A DNA stretch of 38,302 nucleotides from Chloroflexota bacterium (GTDB taxonomy: Bacteria; Chloroflexota; Dehalococcoidia; Lucifugimonadales; Australimonadaceae). The stretch is taken from assembly GCA_027618515.1 (NCBI GenBank), contig JAQCEV010000017.1, positions 1 through 38,302 on the forward strand. The letters are read 5' to 3'. Positions 15,131-24,115 of this stretch are shown in pieces. Every line of letters begins with the position of its first letter. Positions within the stretch are counted from its first letter, which is position 1. The translations under genes and the position numbers were made by a program. The notes beneath the pieces were generated by a model. That model was not told where the DNA came from. It saw only the letters and a program-made list of their open reading frames with translations, and searched no databases.

Positions 15131-16594
15131 CTATCCATGGGTACAGAGCGATCGCCACGCGTGGCCGAAGCGGGCGAGGAGGGCATCGGCATCTGTCGGG
15201 CCCCATGACGTTGGCGGGTAGCCTGCGATAGCAGGCCCGTCGGGAGCCGCCCAGGCCTCAATCAAGGGGTCGACGATGTTCCACGCGTGCTCGACCCAGT
15301 CGCCACGGATGAACAGGCCGGCGTCGCCAGAGAATGCGTCCTCTAGCAAGCGCTCGTAGGCCTCTGGGAGGCGTTGGCCTTGGTAGGCGGTCTCGTAGTG
15401 GAATTCCATGTTCCGGGCGGCGCTGAGCAGCCCTTGGTCGGGAATTTTCGACTGGAAGCTCAGGTGGATCCCCTCGTCCGGCTGGATGCAGATGCCGAGG
15501 GAATTAGGCTCAACTTCTTGGTCGCTCGCCCCATCGAATAGGGAGAGTGGAGGGCGCTTGAAATTGATGACGATCTCGGACACTTTGCTCGCGAGGGCCT
15601 TACCGGAGCGCAGGTAGAAAGGCACGCCCTGCCAGCGGTCGTTGTCGATGAGCAGGCGTATGGCGGCGTAAGTAGGCGTGCGGGAGCCGGGCGTGACGCC
15701 ACGCTCGGCCAGGTAGCCGTCGTATTGGCCCATAGTCGCGTTCAGGGCGAACTCATCTCTCGACCAACGGCGAACCGCACGAACGACATCTACCTTCTTG
15801 TCGCGGATGGCGTTGGCCTCCAACGTAGCAGGTGGCTCCATGGCGACGACGGACATCAGTTGGAGGAGGTGGTTCTGGAGCATGTCGCGCACGACTCCCG
15901 ACGTGTCGTAGTAGCCAGCGCGCGAGCCGACGGTGACGTCCTCCGCGACGGTGATCTGGACGTTCTCGATGAAGTCGCGGTTCCAGATGGGCTCGAACAT
16001 GGCGTTGGCGAACCGGAACACCAATAGATTCTGGACGGTCTCTTTGCCAAGGTAGTGATCGATCCTGTAGGTCTGACTCTCCTGGAAGGCCGTCCGGACG
16101 GTTTCATTCAACGAGTGTGCGGATGCCTCGTCATGGCCAAATGGCTTTTCGATGACCACACGCCGCCAGCCGTCGGTCTCATCGTTGAGGCCGAATCGGC
16201 GCAAACCTTCGATGGCGGGGCCGTGGAACTCGGGGGCGACGGAGAGATAGAAGAGGCGGTCGGCACGATCGAAGGGCGCTTCGCAGGACTCGATGAGTTG
16301 CGCCAAGGCGTCGAACGATGAAGGGTCGCTGAGATCACCGCGAACGTAGTAGAGGTGCTTGGCGAACGCATCCCACTCTGTGCGACTGCCGCCGAAATCG
16401 CCGAAATCTCGGACGCCCTCCCACATCATCTCTCGATACGCAGCGTCGGTCAGGTCGCGACGTGCGAACCCGACGATGTCCAGGTTCTCTGGCAAGCGCC
16501 CCTTGCACTTGAGGTTGAACAGGGCTGGCAGCAGCTTGCGTTGAGTGAGGTCGCCGGTGGCGCCCGCGATAACCACAGTGGTGGTCGTGCTCAT
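15131..16594 (-). CDS. zwf: Glucose-6-phosphate 1-dehydrogenase
   Basis: Oxidises glucose 6-phosphate to 6-phosphogluconolactone with NAD(P)+, the entry step of the oxidative pentose phosphate pathway. The 487-residue length is standard. The coenzyme fingerprint is G11-A-T-G-D-L (a Gly-Ala-Ser-Gly-Asp-Leu variant), followed by EKPFG at 149-153 and the active-site signature R-I-D-H-Y-L-G-K at 177-184, with the catalytic His-180. The start at 16594 is chosen because AGGAG lies 6 nt upstream, rather than the in-frame ATG at 16612. It is followed by the GH15 gene and diverges from the MFS pair. Confidence 0.96.
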
Positions 16595-16757
16595 CACTTC
16601 TCCTGTTTGCAATGCGATCAGGTATCGAGGAGGGCTAGGTCGATGGCCTTGCGCGATTCATTGGATGCTTTGGCGCGGTAAAAGGGTATCGGGTGGGCCG
16701 CAGGTCGCCTGGGATGGGATAGCATGCAAGCGACCTTCGAAGGTAGAGGTATGTCCA

Positions 16758-17978
16758 GTGCACCAACCGTCGGCTACGACATTGAGCGCTCGCGCCGAGA
16801 TGCGCGCGACGGCGTTGATCTACACGGCCTCGTTCAGCTACATGATCACGCTGGGCTTCACGATGCTGTTGGTGCCGCTGTACGCGCTGCACTTGGGATT
16901 CGACCTGGCTGAGCTGGGTATCATCGTGAGTTCGCAGGCACTGTTCGGCCTATTCTTGAGATTGTTCACTGGCGCGTTCTGCGATCAATTCGGAGAGCGC
17001 TGGGTGCTGTGGGGTAGCTTCAGCACGATGGTGGCGGGCGCGGCGATCTTTGCGTACTCGGGCACGTTCTGGGCGCTGATCCTGGCGCAGACGTTCTTGG
17101 GCATCTCTCGGGCGACCTACTGGACGTCAACGCAGTCCTACAGCAGCAGGATCAACCCCGCGAAGTCAGGAACATTGCTGGGGCGCATGAGCAGCTCTGG
17201 AACGGCTGGCCAGATGGTAGGCGCGTTTCTCGGTGGGGTGATCGCAGAAACCATGGGCTATGGCTGGGCGTGGGCGGCAGTGGTCGGGCTTGGTGTCGTG
17301 GGGTTTGCGGGATCATTGGTGCTGCCCGTTCTCCCGCGCAAGGATGTCCGGCGTGGGTTCAAACAGGCGCTGGCTCCCATCCCCACGCTGGCCCGGACGC
17401 CAAGCATGGGCATGGCGGGGTTCACTGCGTTCGTTGCCTCGACCTCAATGACCATCGCCGTGATCCTGCTGATTCCCTACCTGCGTGAACTTGACAATGG
17501 GGAGGCTACGATAGGAGCAGTCCGAACCGTTGGGTCAGCAGGCAGCGTGGTGATCGGTATCTTCTTCGGCCGGATAATTGGGAGGTTCGGCCAGCAGAAC
17601 CTGTATATGTTCGTGCTGACGTTGCTGGGCCTGACGATGTTGGCCGTTCCGTTGGTAGGTGGAGGGTTGCTTGCGCTGAGCATTGTGATGTTCGCCTACG
17701 GCACGCTGCATGGCGTGCTTGGTCCGCTGTACCCGCTCACCGCATCGACCTACAGCTCGCAGGAGCAGCGCGGGATGGCGATCGCTTACGTTGGGCTGTA
17801 CTGGGCGACCGCGCAGATAGTGGTTCCGGCCGCGTTCGGGCTCATCGCGTTGAACTGGGGTCTGAAGGATTCATTCTGGTTCGCCGGGGTGATGTTCCTG
17901 GGATTCGCGATCGCGATGCCCATCCTGTTCCCGCTACTCACCAAGCGACGCTCCCAGGTCAGTGAGCCGGTGGCTTGA
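16758..17978 (+). CDS. MFS transporter (first of a tandem pair)
   Basis: Major facilitator superfamily permease of about 406 residues with 12 predicted membrane segments. The conserved loop between segments 2 and 3 reads 'GAFCDQFGERWVLW', a variant of the MFS motif A. GTG at 16758 is preferred as start because it has GAGG 8 nt upstream and gives the same N-terminal length as the paralogue; an in-frame ATG at 16800 is an alternative. It is clearly paralogous to the next gene (shared 'LIY-x-ASFS', 'LVPLY-x-LHLG', 'SMGMAG'), with which it overlaps by 4 nt. No substrate can be named. Confidence 0.87.
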   Translation: MHQPSATTLSARAEMRATALIYTASFSYMITLGFTMLLVPLYALHLGFDLAELGIIVSSQALFGLFLRLFTGAFCDQFGERWVLWGSFSTMVAGAAIFAYSGTFWALILAQTFLGISRATYWTSTQSYSSRINPAKSGTLLGRMSSSGTAGQMVGAFLGGVIAETMGYGWAWAAVVGLGVVGFAGSLVLPVLPRKDVRRGFKQALAPIPTLARTPSMGMAGFTAFVASTSMTIAVILLIPYLRELDNGEATIGAVRTVGSAGSVVIGIFFGRIIGRFGQQNLYMFVLTLLGLTMLAVPLVGGGLLALSIVMFAYGTLHGVLGPLYPLTASTYSSQEQRGMAIAYVGLYWATAQIVVPAAFGLIALNWGLKDSFWFAGVMFLGFAIAMPILFPLLTKRRSQVSEPVA

Positions 17979-19174
17979 GCACGGGAACCGCGATACTGCC
18001 CTTGGCCACTGAGAAACGTGCGGCGTCACTGATCTACGCGGCGTCGTTCAGCTTCATGATCTCCCTGGGCTCGATGCAGGTACTGGTGCCTCTATACGGA
18101 CTGCACCTAGGTTACGACATCAAGGCGTTGGGGCTGATCCTGAGCGCGCAGGCCGTGCTGCCTATCTTCACCCGCTTCTTCGGCGGCGCTATCGCCGATC
18201 GGTTCGGTGCTCGATACGTGCTGTGGTTCTCGTTCGGCGCGATGGTCGCCGCAGGCACGGTACTGTCGCTCTCAGGCGTGTTCTGGGCGCTGATCGCCGC
18301 GCAGACGTTGCAGGGGATGTCGCGCTCCACCTACTGGACGGTGACGCAGTCCTACGCGACGCGACTCAACCCGGATCTTGCGGCCACGCGTTTAGGTGGG
18401 CTAAGCAGCTCTGGCAACGCAGGAAGCATCATCGGCACGGCGCTGTCGGGGTTCCTGGCGTTCGGGCCAGGCTACGGTGTCGCCTTCGGGATGGTTGCGG
18501 CATTCGCTTTGGTAGGTCTGCTGGGAAGCGTTGCGCTGCCCAACCTGCCACGCCCCAGCACGAAGCGTGGATTCAGAGCGGCGCTAGAGCCGATCCCGAG
18601 CGTGGCGTCGAGTCGTTCGATGGGGATGGCCGGGATCAGCGCATTCATTGGCTCGACCTCCACGATGCTGGGAATCATCCTGATCATCCCGCTCATGAAG
18701 GACGCGGCGTTCAACGAGTCGGAGATCGGTATCGCGCGCACGATCACCGCCGTGGGGAGCCTGACGGCAGGCTTGCTGTTCGGCAAGCTTATGGGGCGGC
18801 TGGGCCTGATGCGACTGCACTCGGTGGCGTTCGGGCTGCAGGGGCTGACATTCTTGATCGTACCGCTGACGGCCACTCACCTAGCGAGTGGCCTGCCCAT
18901 CATGTACATCTACGGTCTGTTCGCTGGCGTGATGGGCTCGCTCTACCCCATGTCTGCGGCGACGTGCAGTCGCCCGGAGCACCGTGGCACAGCGATGGCG
19001 TACGCAGGCCAGTTCTGGGGGTTAGCGCAACTGGTCATCCCGGCGGCATTCGGCTTCATCGCAGCGGCGGTCGGGTTGGATGCATCCCTGTACATGAGCG
19101 GCGTGATGTTCGTCGGGCTAGCGTTCGTGATCCCTGCGGTGTATCCGTTCATGACGAAAGGCGGGGTCAAGTGA
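17975..19174 (+). CDS. MFS transporter (second of a tandem pair)
   Basis: A 399-residue, 12-segment MFS permease, paralogue of the gene immediately upstream. Its loop 2-3 motif 'GAIADRFGARYVLW' is closer to the canonical G-x-x-x-D-R-x-G-R pattern than that of the first copy. The start is TTG at 17975, overlapping the upstream TGA as TTGA, which explains the poor start codon through coupling. Its own TGA overlaps the GTG of the following lipoprotein. The pair may act as a heterodimer or reflect a simple duplication with diverging specificity. Confidence 0.87.
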   Translation: MSTGTAILPLATEKRAASLIYAASFSFMISLGSMQVLVPLYGLHLGYDIKALGLILSAQAVLPIFTRFFGGAIADRFGARYVLWFSFGAMVAAGTVLSLSGVFWALIAAQTLQGMSRSTYWTVTQSYATRLNPDLAATRLGGLSSSGNAGSIIGTALSGFLAFGPGYGVAFGMVAAFALVGLLGSVALPNLPRPSTKRGFRAALEPIPSVASSRSMGMAGISAFIGSTSTMLGIILIIPLMKDAAFNESEIGIARTITAVGSLTAGLLFGKLMGRLGLMRLHSVAFGLQGLTFLIVPLTATHLASGLPIMYIYGLFAGVMGSLYPMSAATCSRPEHRGTAMAYAGQFWGLAQLVIPAAFGFIAAAVGLDASLYMSGVMFVGLAFVIPAVYPFMTKGGVK

Positions 19175-19897: not shown

Positions 19898-20366
19898 CTA
19901 GCTCGTCTCGCCGCGATGAGCGTAGGCCGTCGAGAGCTCAGCCATGACGTCTGGTGTGCCACGACGGTCGTCGGCGAAGGGCCCACCACGGCGGTCGTCA
20001 CCGGGGAAGAACGAGTCTTCTTGCGGCAGGACGATGCACTGGTTCTCAGCCGGGTCGCGGAACGTGTTGATGGGGTCGCCGCCGTCCTGAACGATATGGA
20101 TCTGCTCGTCCAGCATCTTCCTGGACATGATGACGCCAACGTCGATGGAATTCAGCGTCTCGGTAGAGCGATCCGTGATGGCGCCCTGGGCAATCCATAT
20201 CATGTGGTCCTGGTGTGGGACGAGATCAAGGACGTACTTGCCGTCGGCGTCCCAGATCGGGACGATTTCAGACGGCACGATCTCAGGGTTCTCGATCGTC
20301 TCGCCGGGCGCTGGCAGGTGACACATGTAGCGGACGTGGAGCGTGTGCTCGTCGTCAATGGGCACG
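19898..20366 (-). pseudogene. C-terminal fragment of a Rieske oxygenase alpha subunit
   Basis: About 156 codons encode only the last third of a Rieske oxygenase. The sequence 'VPIDDEHTLHVRYMCHLP' aligns with 'VPMDDNTCMVYNW' near residue 270 of the oxygenase at 5036-6301. It continues with 'DRSTETL' and the 'GGDP' region to a normal stop. The Rieske cluster domain and the iron-binding histidines are missing. Upstream of codon V-P-I-D-D the frame stays open, but it is antisense to an amidohydrolase and shows no Rieske homology. The 5' part of the gene was lost at a sharp junction near 20363-20370. It is not expected to make an active oxygenase. Confidence 0.82.
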
Positions 20367-21011
20367 ATGGATGTGGCGATCGAGGAGTTGCGATGGGCGG
20401 TGCAGCACGGCTGCTGCGGCGTGACGATGCGGCCCGTCGAAGATGCGCGCACGCTGGTGAATCCGTACTTCAACCCTATCTTTGAAGAAGCGCAGAATCT
20501 TAATATCCCCATCGCCGCGCACATCGGGAACTCGAACTTGGGCTTCCGCGATCTGATGGCGACAGACGGCGTTGGTGGTACGTTCGGCACGTTCCGGCTC
20601 ACCTCAGTCGCGGCCTGCCACTCGATCATGTCACGAGAGATGTACAAGGAGTTTCCGACGCTGCGCTGGGGCATCATCGAGGCTTCGTCGCAGTGGATCC
20701 CGTTCGTGATTCACGACTTGCGCCGCCGACTGGAAACACGGGGCCGCAAGCTTCCGGACGAGGCAATGAAGACCAATAACATCTGGGTGACGTGCCAGAC
20801 CGACGACGATATCTCATACGTCGCGGGCTACGCGGGCGACGGTCAGCTGGTGATCGGTACGGATTATGGTCACGAGGATCAGTCCAGCGAGATACAGGCG
20901 ATGCGCAACGTGCGGGATAAGGGCGACGTTGACGCAGGGCTGCTCGATAAGATCATGGGCCAGAACGGCGTTGACCTGTACGGGATTGATATGGCTCAGA
21001 TAGGGCGCTAG
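20367..21011 (+). pseudogene. C-terminal fragment of an ACMSD-type amidohydrolase
   Basis: About 214 codons match the last 200 residues of the amidohydrolase at 30309-31361: 'MDVAIEELRWAVQHGCCGV' aligns with 'MDAVPEQLKFAKENGAVGI' near residue 148 there. Downstream 'AAHIGNSNLGF', 'WIIE'-like 'WGIIEASSQWIPF' and 'GTDYGHEDQSSE' (a metal-binding Asp region) are intact. The N-terminal 147 or so residues, including the first metal-binding motif, are missing. Possible starts at GTG 20343, ATG 20358 or ATG 20367 have no good ribosome binding site. It joins head to head with the Rieske fragment, so both genes lost their 5' ends together. Confidence 0.82.
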
Positions 21012-21147: not shown

Positions 21148-22440
21148 CTACTCTTTCCCGTTCCCTGCAGTGGCGGCGGACATCTCGTGGACGCCATGAC
21201 CAGCGTTCGATCCTGTACCGTTGGCGGTGGCCTTCTTCTTGGCCAGATGCGGGTAGACTTTTCGCCAGTCGCTGCCCTTGGGGTAGTGGGCCGCGAAGGT
21301 GTCGATGTGATCCTGCGGGAGCTCCGGGTCCTTGGACGTGTGGGGCAACGGCAATCCCTTCTGGAAATTCTCGACCGCCTTCAACAGGAATCTACGGACG
21401 GCAATGACGCCTTTATCGCTTACGGCAAGATGCTCTGTAGTGCGATCGTAGACCCGGCCCATGGACTCGGTCGCCATGGCATCGTGGCCCAAGAAGTTCA
21501 TGCCGAGACCTAGGAACGTCTTCGTGCGCTGCTCCTCACGGTCGATCAGGTAGTCGTTGTCCGCGCGGCGGTGCCGGACGAAGCCTGGCCCGATCTGGTC
21601 GCGGCGAGGTATTTCTTCATCAGGCGCCATGGGCTCTGCGGTCATGCCGAAATCCCACCGCCACGAACTACCATCGTCGATGGGCACGTACATGTGCACT
21701 TCACGGGTCCGCGCTGGCACCCAGACCGACAGCGGCATAACGAAGCTGGACACGCGGAAATAGGTCTCCTCTCCAGCGTCTCGGATGGCGACCATGCGGA
21801 CGCCGAAGTCGGTGTCCTCCGTGGTGTACTCCGGGTACTTGTCGAGGTACGTGTCCTCGTAGCCCTTGGCGCCGAAGATGCGGTGAAGGAAGTTGAGGTG
21901 GGCGGAGTCGCACTCGCCCTCGAGCCCCTGCAGCCACGAGCAATCCAGGTAAGACTTGGCTGCGTAGACGCGGTTGAGCGGCATCTTCATGAATTCGTAG
22001 TTGGGCACAGCGGGCATCTCGTCGGCGGGGCCCATGTAGGTCCAGATGATGCCGGCGGCCTCGTGGGTCGGGTACGCGGGGTGCTTGATCTTGTTCCGAA
22101 ATACGCTGTTGGGGGGCTCGGCGGGCGTTTCGAGGATGGTGCCTTCGACATCCATCTTCCAGCCGTGGTATCCGCAGCGCAGGCCACAGTTCTCGTTGCG
22201 GCCGTAAAAGAGAGACGTGCCGCGATGCGAACAGTGCTCGGCCACGAGCCCGATACGGCCGTCAGTGTCACGGAAAGCCACTAGTTCTTCACCTAGGATC
22301 GGCACACGAACCGGAGGGCAATCTGGCTCAGGGATCTCCTCGGACATGAGCGCCGGGATCCAGTAGCGACGCATGACCTCTCCCAACGGTGTTCCCTTGC
22401 GGGTTTCGTTGAGCCATGCATTCTGTCTCTTGGTGAACAT
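21148..22440 (-). CDS. Rieske [2Fe-2S] ring-hydroxylating oxygenase, alpha subunit
   Basis: Intact Rieske non-haem iron oxygenase of 430 residues from the ATG at 22440, which has GAGGGG 6 nt upstream. Cluster ligands are C70-S-H72 and C89-G-Y-H92. The iron site is D178-S-A-H181-L-N-F-L-H186. A low-complexity tail of about 30 residues rich in Lys, Ala, Thr and Gly follows the catalytic domain. It belongs to the phthalate-dioxygenase-like group that works as an alpha-only oligomer with an external reductase; no reductase is adjacent. It diverges from the selenoprotein gene. The N-terminal 'KGTPLGEVMRRYWIPA' is very like that of the oxygenase at 5036-6301. Confidence 0.94.
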   Translation of the reverse strand: MFTKRQNAWLNETRKGTPLGEVMRRYWIPALMSEEIPEPDCPPVRVPILGEELVAFRDTDGRIGLVAEHCSHRGTSLFYGRNENCGLRCGYHGWKMDVEGTILETPAEPPNSVFRNKIKHPAYPTHEAAGIIWTYMGPADEMPAVPNYEFMKMPLNRVYAAKSYLDCSWLQGLEGECDSAHLNFLHRIFGAKGYEDTYLDKYPEYTTEDTDFGVRMVAIRDAGEETYFRVSSFVMPLSVWVPARTREVHMYVPIDDGSSWRWDFGMTAEPMAPDEEIPRRDQIGPGFVRHRRADNDYLIDREEQRTKTFLGLGMNFLGHDAMATESMGRVYDRTTEHLAVSDKGVIAVRRFLLKAVENFQKGLPLPHTSKDPELPQDHIDTFAAHYPKGSDWRKVYPHLAKKKATANGTGSNAGHGVHEMSAATAGNGKE

Positions 22441-22592
22441 CGTCAGCCCCTCTGATAATCGTCGACTTAGCGGCCAATCGCATCTTACGACAGCGATACG
22501 CCATTGTCCCTCTGGCAAGCTGAATCCAAACGACGCCTTGGAGCATCTTAGAGGCTGCGTGCTGTACGCCGCACGAACTAGGAGTAAACCCC

Positions 22593-23117
22593 ATGCCTGA
22601 TTGGCTGATCCAGGGCGACAAGATTCCGCCCATCACGTTGAACCTCATCGATGGTGGCACGCTAACGCTGCCGGACGACACGCCTGACCGCTACGTTGCG
22701 TTGCTTTTCTATCGCGGCAATTGGTGACCGTACTGCAGGCGCCAGTTGGCGTCGTACCAGGAAAAGCTTGAGGAATTGACCACGCTTGGGGCGACGGTCG
22801 TGGCGGTATCCGTTGAGTCGCTGGAGTCCACCCAAGAGATGGTGGAGAAATACGGCCTGACTTTCCCGGTCGCTTACGGCGTAACGGACGATCAGGTTGA
22901 GGGCTTCCACCCGCTGTACAACGAGGATCACCACGGCAGGTACATCCAGCCGATGGAGTTCCTGCTGCTGCGCAACGGGAGCGTTTTCGGGTCTATGTAC
23001 GCGTCCGGGCCGGTGGGTCGGATGGGCGTGGAGGAAGTGCTCAACTCCATCCGCAGCCGCGAGCGCCGCAGGTTGGAGCGCGAGGCGGAAGAGGCTGAGG
23101 CCGCGAAAAAGGGCTAG
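22593..23117 (+). CDS. Peroxiredoxin-like selenoprotein (in-frame TGA read as selenocysteine, U-P-Y-C)
   Basis: One continuous frame of 174 residues from ATG 22593 (AGGAG 8 nt upstream) to TAG 23115-23117, interrupted only by TGA at 22725-22727, codon 45. Both sides belong to one AhpC/TSA-like thioredoxin-fold protein: before it 'YVALLFYRGNW', after it 'PYCRRQLASYQEKL'. In homologues this site reads R-G-x-W-C-P-Y-C, so the TGA replaces the redox-active (peroxidatic) Cys and leaves U45-P-Y-C48. Later hallmarks are 'VVAVSVES', 'GLTFPVAYG' and 'ASGPVGRMGVEEVL'; the tail is a charged helix. A SECIS-like hairpin follows the TGA. It probably reduces peroxides or disulfides with a selenenylsulfide relay. 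Without selenocysteine insertion only a 44-residue stub would be made. Confidence 0.88.
22725..22757 (+). promoter_or_regulatory. Bacterial SECIS-like element with UGA selenocysteine codon
   Basis: TGA at 22725-22727 is followed by a hairpin. GTAC (22730-22733) pairs with GTAC (22754-22757), TGCA (22734-22737) is a one-sided bulge, GGCGCC (22738-22743) pairs with GGCGTC (22748-22753, one G-U), and the apical loop is AGTT (22744-22747). The loop lies 16 nt after the TGA and has G at its second position. Both fit the known requirements for SelB recognition in bacteria. Confidence 0.75.
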
Positions 23118-23122
23118 TGGGT

Positions 23123-24115
23123 CTAGCCCAACTTGGGCGCACCAACTCCAGGGTTCAACGCGTTGCCAGGTATCCCACCGCCGACCACGGTGAGGATGCT
23201 GTCGACCACGGCGCGCTGGGTGCCGCGACGGGCGGCGTCGGTGTTGGAAACGGCATGGGGTGTCATCAACACGCGGTCTGCATCGAGCCCCCGCAGTGGG
23301 TCATCGGCTGGCAACGGCTCTTCGTGGAACACGTCCAGCGCTGCGCCCGCGATCCAGTCTTCGTTGATCGCACGGATCAACGCTTGGTCGTCGACGACAG
23401 CTCCGCGTGCCGTGTTTATGAGCAGGGCGTTGGGTTTCATGGCGCGCAGTTCTGCTTCGCCGATGAGGCCTCGCGTCTCGGGCGTCAGGGGCACGTGTAG
23501 CGTGACGATGTCCGATTGCTGCAACAACGTTGGTAGATCCACCATTTCAACGCCAAGCTGACTGGCGACGGTGGGGTTGGGTGTCCGTGTGTACGCCAAA
23601 ATGCGAGCGCCCCAGCCAGAGATGTGTCGCGCAACGCTTTGTCCGATCGCGCCGAAGCCGACGATGCCGATGGTGCTTCCATGAATGAGCGTGGCTCGCT
23701 CAGTGCCGTCATCACGCCAGTCGCCATTGCGTAGGCGACCAGACCTGAGTTGCAGGCGCTTGGCCGAAGCAAGCATCAGCGCCAATGTCCCCTCAGCCAC
23801 CCCTGCCGTGCTGGCCTCCGTCTGCGTATTGCACACGAGTACCCCTGCCGTCGTTGCAGCGCTGACGTCGATCTTGTCGTAGCCCACGTAGGGAGTGATG
23901 GCCAGCTTCAGCTTGGGCAGCGCCGCCAGGATGGTCGGGGTGATGACGTTGTAGATCAAGCAATCAGCGTCGCCCGCAGCCTCAACGAGTTCGTCTTGGG
24001 TCAAGCGGGTCACCGCTTGGCTGCGAGCAGGCCCGAAGATCAATTCGTGACCAGCTTCGCGCAGTGGTTCGTAATCGTCGGCGGAGCCAACGAGGGTTAT
24101 GACAGCGATCTTCAT
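23123..24115 (-). CDS. D-2-hydroxyacid dehydrogenase (phosphoglycerate dehydrogenase-like)
   Basis: NAD-dependent dehydrogenase of 330 residues. The nucleotide-binding loop is G-F-G-A-I-G at 153-158. The catalytic set is present: R237 in 'NTARGAVVD', E265/E266 in 'DVFHEEPLP' and H287 in 'TPHAVS'. The 'NTQTEASTAGVAEGTLALML' region is typical of the family. Without an ACT or regulatory domain, this is a short form that may act on 3-phosphoglycerate, glyoxylate/hydroxypyruvate or another 2-hydroxyacid. It lies 17 nt downstream of an amidohydrolase gene in an apparent MFS-amidohydrolase-dehydrogenase operon, which suggests catabolism of a carboxylate. The stop is 5 nt from that of the convergent selenoprotein gene. 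Confidence 0.92.
   Translation of the reverse strand: MKIAVITLVGSADDYEPLREAGHELIFGPARSQAVTRLTQDELVEAAGDADCLIYNVITPTILAALPKLKLAITPYVGYDKIDVSAATTAGVLVCNTQTEASTAGVAEGTLALMLASAKRLQLRSGRLRNGDWRDDGTERATLIHGSTIGIVGFGAIGQSVARHISGWGARILAYTRTPNPTVASQLGVEMVDLPTLLQQSDIVTLHVPLTPETRGLIGEAELRAMKPNALLINTARGAVVDDQALIRAINEDWIAGAALDVFHEEPLPADDPLRGLDADRVLMTPHAVSNTDAARRGTQRAVVDSILTVVGGGIPGNALNPGVGAPKLG

Follow-up and report, generated by a model that had tools for sequence, protein, structure and literature searches.

The analysed window is a stretch of 38,302 nucleotides, contig C61 of a draft genome of 3.0 Mb (G000; 178 contigs, 93.8% complete). It contains a gene which, when TGA is read as selenocysteine (Sec, U), forms a single open frame of 174 residues ending at a TAG stop, with codon 45 as the only in-frame TGA (Table 1). 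Translation thus confirms the original prediction that one frame passes through one TGA. The deduced protein begins with MPDWLIQGDK, carries the Sec in the context FYRGNW-U-PYCRRQLA and terminates in AAKKG. In place of a TxxU or TxxC motif it has a UxxC motif, U45-P-Y-C48, and residues 45 and 48 are the sole Cys/Sec, and hence redox, residues of the protein. The AhpC-TSA domain PF00578 matches the read-through protein with an E value of 4.6e-21 (75.5 bits, the cut-off being 26) and covers residues 8-106, that is, across the TGA, so both sides of this codon belong to one AhpC/TSA-like protein, as had been proposed. The ribosome binding site expected at the true start is present as well. A mechanical ORF caller yields just a 123-aa fragment starting at an internal TTG (22746) within the loop region of the hairpin described below; ordinary annotation would indeed truncate the gene.

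Table 1. Features of the selenoprotein locus and its direct neighbours (window coordinates)
Feature	Position	Strand	Basis or remark
Prx-like gene with Sec (UxxC, AhpC/TSA family)	22593..23117	+	read-through frame, PF00578, homologues, AlphaFold2
Shine-Dalgarno-like AGGAG	22580..22584	+	direct sequence reading; spacing 8 nt to ATG at 22593
Sec codon UGA, residue 45, first UxxC position	22725..22727	+	codon tally in 81 homologous genes
Cys48 codon, second UxxC position	22734..22736	+	alignment of 52 sequences, invariant 52/52
Predicted bacterial SECIS hairpin	22730..22757	+	RNA fold, loop conservation and pairing register across family, published model criteria
Outer stem GUAC/GUAC	22730-22733 with 22754-22757	+	
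Upper stem GGCGCC/GGCGUC, 6 bp	22738-22743 with 22748-22753	+	
Loop AGUU, 4 nt, 16 nt after UGA	22744-22747	+	
LigXa-type Rieske oxygenase, divergent	21148-22518	-	
2-hydroxyacid dehydrogenase	23123-24115	-	gene end 5 bases past TAG

With a minus-strand gene on either side, the gene is alone on its own strand. Farther off on the contig there are amidohydrolases, MFS transporters (two of them in tandem at 16545-19174, with a 4-base overlap), a luciferase-like monooxygenase and a G6PD. At about 20300-20700, the apparent tail of a LigXa-like Rieske oxygenase (ORF 19898-20677, minus strand, assigned by eye) abuts an amidohydrolase (20343-21011, plus strand) of which the first third is missing; by eye, this looks like an assembly junction or the scar of a rearrangement. 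The gene has no neighbours that are shared between families; only the family f123 keeps a common flank. In four of its loci (L197, L201, L206 and L209), a long ORF that by eye resembles NuoG/formate dehydrogenase (937 aa in L209) is found in the vicinity of the Sec gene; it was not seen there in other families. Among 16 genomes sampled in the host's own family, only G000 has a close copy, a distribution suggesting that the gene has been gained, or repeatedly lost, within the family. Mis-binning of the contig would be another way to account for such an isolated copy; against this, the G6PD encoded on the contig has relatives at 55-62% within that family.

Read-through of stop codons was allowed in the searches for homologues, which covered 400 genomes from the phylum and 250 from the order; matches with one TGA are recurrent in both. 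In 81 distinct homologous genes extracted from the fetched loci, the codon corresponding to codon 45 is TGA in 66, TGC or TGT in 14 and TCA (Ser) in one. The TGA therefore falls where homologues carry the first Cys of CxxC, as had been claimed, and the exchange between TGA and TGC/TGT at this codon, which had been suggested as a check, does exist among relatives. Of 247 genomes in the order, 43 contain the exact nucleotide motif that surrounds the TGA; the reversed control pattern gave 0 matches among those listed for these genomes. A scan of genome contigs with the Cys-substituted protein returned distant Cys homologues only, because the search pattern required Cys, and no relative turned up when viral contigs were scanned with the family alignment. 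Tallies of matches with two TGAs do not demonstrate a UxxU form: the five fetched examples (L082-L086) have one TGA inside the gene, the second being the stop. The genome G000 also contains a second, diverged Sec copy with TGA (C154:45264-45752, L081; 52% identical), which has the motif W-U-T-N-C and a strong hairpin that follows the same design.

In all ten pairs computed, dN/dS is at most 0.25 both upstream and downstream of the TGA, part of the pairwise dS values being saturated. For example, dN and dS are 0.089/1.054 upstream and 0.074/1.029 downstream for the pair L052/L054, and 0.010/0.457 and 0.067/0.891, respectively, for L067/L072. Third-position changes predominate on either side. 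Both halves are thus under purifying selection, including the downstream half, for which relaxed selection had been named as a refuting sign. A nonsense mutation in an ordinary Cys-type gene, or a sequencing or assembly error, could produce the same codon by a single TGC-to-TGA change, and the genome is a draft in 178 contigs. However, TGA is present at this very codon in 66 distinct genes spread over many families in the order and phylum, both halves are intact and under purifying selection, and the second copy in the same genome has the TGA too. Such a pseudogene or error is extremely improbable and is refuted by the comparative data; the frame is an intact gene, not a pseudogene.

The host genome was examined for the selenocysteine machinery, and selA, selB, selD and a tRNA-Sec are all present. 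The tRNA-Sec (C59:39440) scores 71.4 bits, above the cut-off, and has the anticodon UCA, in agreement with ARAGORN and with inspection by eye. The genes selA (contig C16), selB (C174) and selD (C112) score 497, 347 and 363 bits, respectively. This selD (L020:1501-2430, minus strand) is a selenoprotein gene too, its active site, CAG-U-AGKF, containing one TGA codon. In the order, selA is above the cut-off in 201 of 250 genomes. When the two tables are read side by side, selA is present in every one of the about 50 genomes that combine a strong TGA form with a completeness of at least 90%, and the TGA-form genomes without it are, without exception, less complete drafts. The genome G543, which is 91% complete and has the Cys form, is without selA above the cut-off.

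Stop codon usage in G000 is unusual. Among 55 long ORFs from the window and other loci of the genome, 38 end in TAG and 6 in TGA, while TGA is expected as the prevalent stop because of the G+C content of 61%; this may reflect avoidance of UGA as a stop. Rarity of TGA as a stop would also suit a UGA that is read through without Sec, either recoded as Trp or Cys or passed by leaky termination. Against this, TGA still terminates genes in G000 and its relatives, and a complete Sec machinery coexists with a SECIS-like signature that is limited to TGA genes. Furthermore, the exchange partner of TGA at codon 45 is Cys and, among the 81 homologous genes, never Trp, which rules out recoding as Trp. Read-through of the non-Sec type is therefore very unlikely.

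The hairpin predicted just past the UGA has a fold energy of -12.2 kcal/mol over its whole length and of -9.0 kcal/mol for the upper hairpin. A published model of the bacterial SECIS describes a loop of 3-9 nt with a G among its first two nucleotides, a stem of 4-16 bp, a spacing of 16-37 nt from the UGA and a minimum free energy of at most -7.5 kcal/mol (PMC13188914). The hairpin agrees with this model in every point (4-nt loop, G second, 6 bp, 16 nt, -9.0 kcal/mol). Taken by itself, it is not unusually stable in comparison with synonymous shuffles (p 0.16), nor exceptional against dinucleotide shuffles (z -1.6). Across the family, hairpin energy against synonymous shuffles has a mean z of -0.5 to -0.8 for TGA genes and of +0.28 for the others. 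This per-gene test is weak, and a family-level codon test was therefore used. Many of the nearest TGA homologues have an imperfect stem.

At the family level, the loops of the 66 TGA genes read AGTTG in 46 cases, AGTTA in 14, AGCTA in four and AGCTG in two; AGTTR is thus found in 60 of 66 TGA genes versus one of the 15 others. TTR encodes the Leu of the loop in the same proportion (60/66), versus 132 of the 1029 Leu codons elsewhere in these genes (13%; Fisher p 3e-42, with related genes treated as independent), and the Gln codon is CAG in 66 of 66. No such codon or loop bias is seen in the 15 Cys/Ser genes (7/15). The arms pair in register in 87% of cases in TGA genes, compared to 15-49% when slid by 1-3 nt; the Cys/Ser genes show neither this pairing nor the constant CAG. 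In the 60 TGA genes that have it, the AGTTR loop is fixed via synonymous codon choice. In the gene studied here, the Arg codon is CGC where CGG is usual for the family and the next Ala codon is GCG where GCC is usual; the stem is shifted by one base and closes a 4-nt loop, the change on both sides preserving the pairing. The signal for a SECIS is one of the family, not of this single gene.

It may tentatively be proposed, at somewhat less than even confidence, that the codons of the Arg-Gln-Leu stretch after the UxxC motif are each maintained for the SECIS hairpin (CGG-CAG-TTG-GCC) and not for a need of the enzyme. By the same reading, it is conceivable, if not the favoured expectation, that lineages that have exchanged Sec for Cys lose this constraint and drift to RHL, NLQL or RQQL. 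If so, an RNA signal would dictate protein sequence, and a Sec active site would freeze its neighbouring residues.

In the maximum-likelihood tree, the Sec/Cys label needs just four changes. Three Cys genes (from G543, G047 and G418) form one clade with a support of 99/90, nested among Sec genes within the same 97/92 clade as the gene of the window. This nesting makes at least one Sec-to-Cys exchange likely, the fork being partly open. In the genome G491, tandem copies lie about 45 nt apart (L087:514-1551, plus strand), the first with TGA and the second with TCA (Ser); the TCA copy is full length and retains Cys48, and its nearest relative (L064) has TGA. The family also provides clean examples of Sec exchanged for Cys or for Ser, and in these the SECIS signal vanishes along with the Sec codon.

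An AlphaFold2 model based on 52 sequences (pLDDT 95.8, pTM 0.90) is placed among the peroxiredoxins by Foldseek and by VIA-align (Z about 20), an example being Bcp4 (3hjp; Z 20.9, rmsd 2.1 over 156 residues). In the model, Sec45 is located at the start of helix 46-57. Residues R41, W44, C48 and L52 are invariant in the alignment of the 52 sequences. When aligned to the peroxiredoxin of PDB 6q5v, C48 corresponds to the peroxidatic Cys, U45 to the Thr and R41 to the Pro of PxxxTxxC; this canonical motif is thus absent. The catalytic Arg in the strand after DxxGxVR is also absent, since the column that corresponds to it in the alignment to 6q5v (132) holds F, L or A in most of the 52 sequences. 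The designation as peroxiredoxin-like therefore holds for the fold but not for the catalytic motif.

One could imagine that the protein is a genuine peroxiredoxin selenoprotein in which Cys48 is the peroxidatic residue and Sec45 its resolving partner rather than the attacking residue. The peroxiredoxin fold and the invariance of C48, aligned with the peroxidatic Cys, speak for this. On the other hand, the Pro, Thr and Arg that activate a peroxidatic Cys are missing, and the N-terminal position of UxxC, here occupied by Sec45, is the nucleophile position of thioredoxin-fold oxidoreductases. A genuine peroxiredoxin thus seems unlikely. With Sec at the Thr position and C48 at the peroxidatic position, thioredoxin-like chemistry is favoured; most probably, the enzyme acts as a UxxC oxidoreductase of the thioredoxin-like kind that is built on a peroxiredoxin scaffold. 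Reduction of peroxide by the enzyme is possible, but since it lacks the Thr and Arg of peroxiredoxins, peroxidase activity is doubtful.

On comparative grounds, the gene almost certainly encodes a Sec-containing Prx-like redox enzyme, with UGA decoded as Sec by means of the machinery and the hairpin, as was originally predicted; this is supported by the presence of the machinery, the exchange between TGA and Cys and the pattern of selection. SelA would make Sec-tRNA-Sec with selenophosphate supplied by SelD, and SelB carrying this tRNA would bind the hairpin just past the UGA, so that Sec is presumably delivered at codon 45 in place of termination. The protein would then fold as a domain of the peroxiredoxin/thioredoxin type. 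Most likely, the selenolate of Sec45 acts as the nucleophile on a peroxide or a disulfide; a selenenylsulfide between Sec45 and Cys48 would be formed, and thioredoxin or a low-molecular thiol might reset the enzyme.

These data point to a selenocysteine enzyme, and to a selenocysteine trait that spans almost the whole order, in a large bacterial group whose standard annotation stops at UGA. In the annotation of its genomes, a stub of 44 residues or a fragment of 123 residues is likely to stand in for an antioxidant-type enzyme, and the selenium demand of the group is likely underestimated. What appears to be new is the presence of two copies in G000 and of dozens across the order that are caught by no NCBIfam model; none of these models reaches its cut-off with the read-through protein. 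No report linking this clade, in which selA is so widespread, to the Prx-like family was found in the literature searched, and a search on SAR202 and selenoproteins found nothing on the topic. The gene content is consistent with a SAR202-type genome, as had been suggested.

The protein is best classed with the known family of 'Prx-like' UxxC selenoproteins (PF00578), the published members being compared by description. Prx-like UxxC selenoproteins of pfam00578 were described in the Sargasso Sea survey (22 sequences; PMC1088965), Prx-like 1 selenoproteins are represented by 225 sequences in the GOS data (PMC2398784), and the group appears in recent reviews. With these it shares the PF00578 domain, a thioredoxin-like UxxC in place of the TxxU of peroxiredoxins, Cys homologues and bacterial Sec decoding. 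The AhpC/TSA fold, dependence on Sec and thiol redox chemistry are also common to the PrxU-type Sec peroxiredoxins, in which, however, Sec is the peroxidatic residue of PxxxTxxU, while here it stands three residues earlier, at the Thr position. SelL and SelL-related redox proteins (NF040769) have a Prx-like fold and a motif of the CxxC/UxxU type as well; the match is weak (31.7 bits, far under the curated cut-off of 120 bits), and the protein described here has a single Sec and no UxxU. Finally, ResA-type thiol:disulfide oxidoreductases have a CxxC at the same place, and 3c71 is the best phmmer match in the PDB, but the fold matches better to peroxiredoxins and the score of 36.9 bits lies far under the NCBIfam cut-off of 170 bits for ResA.
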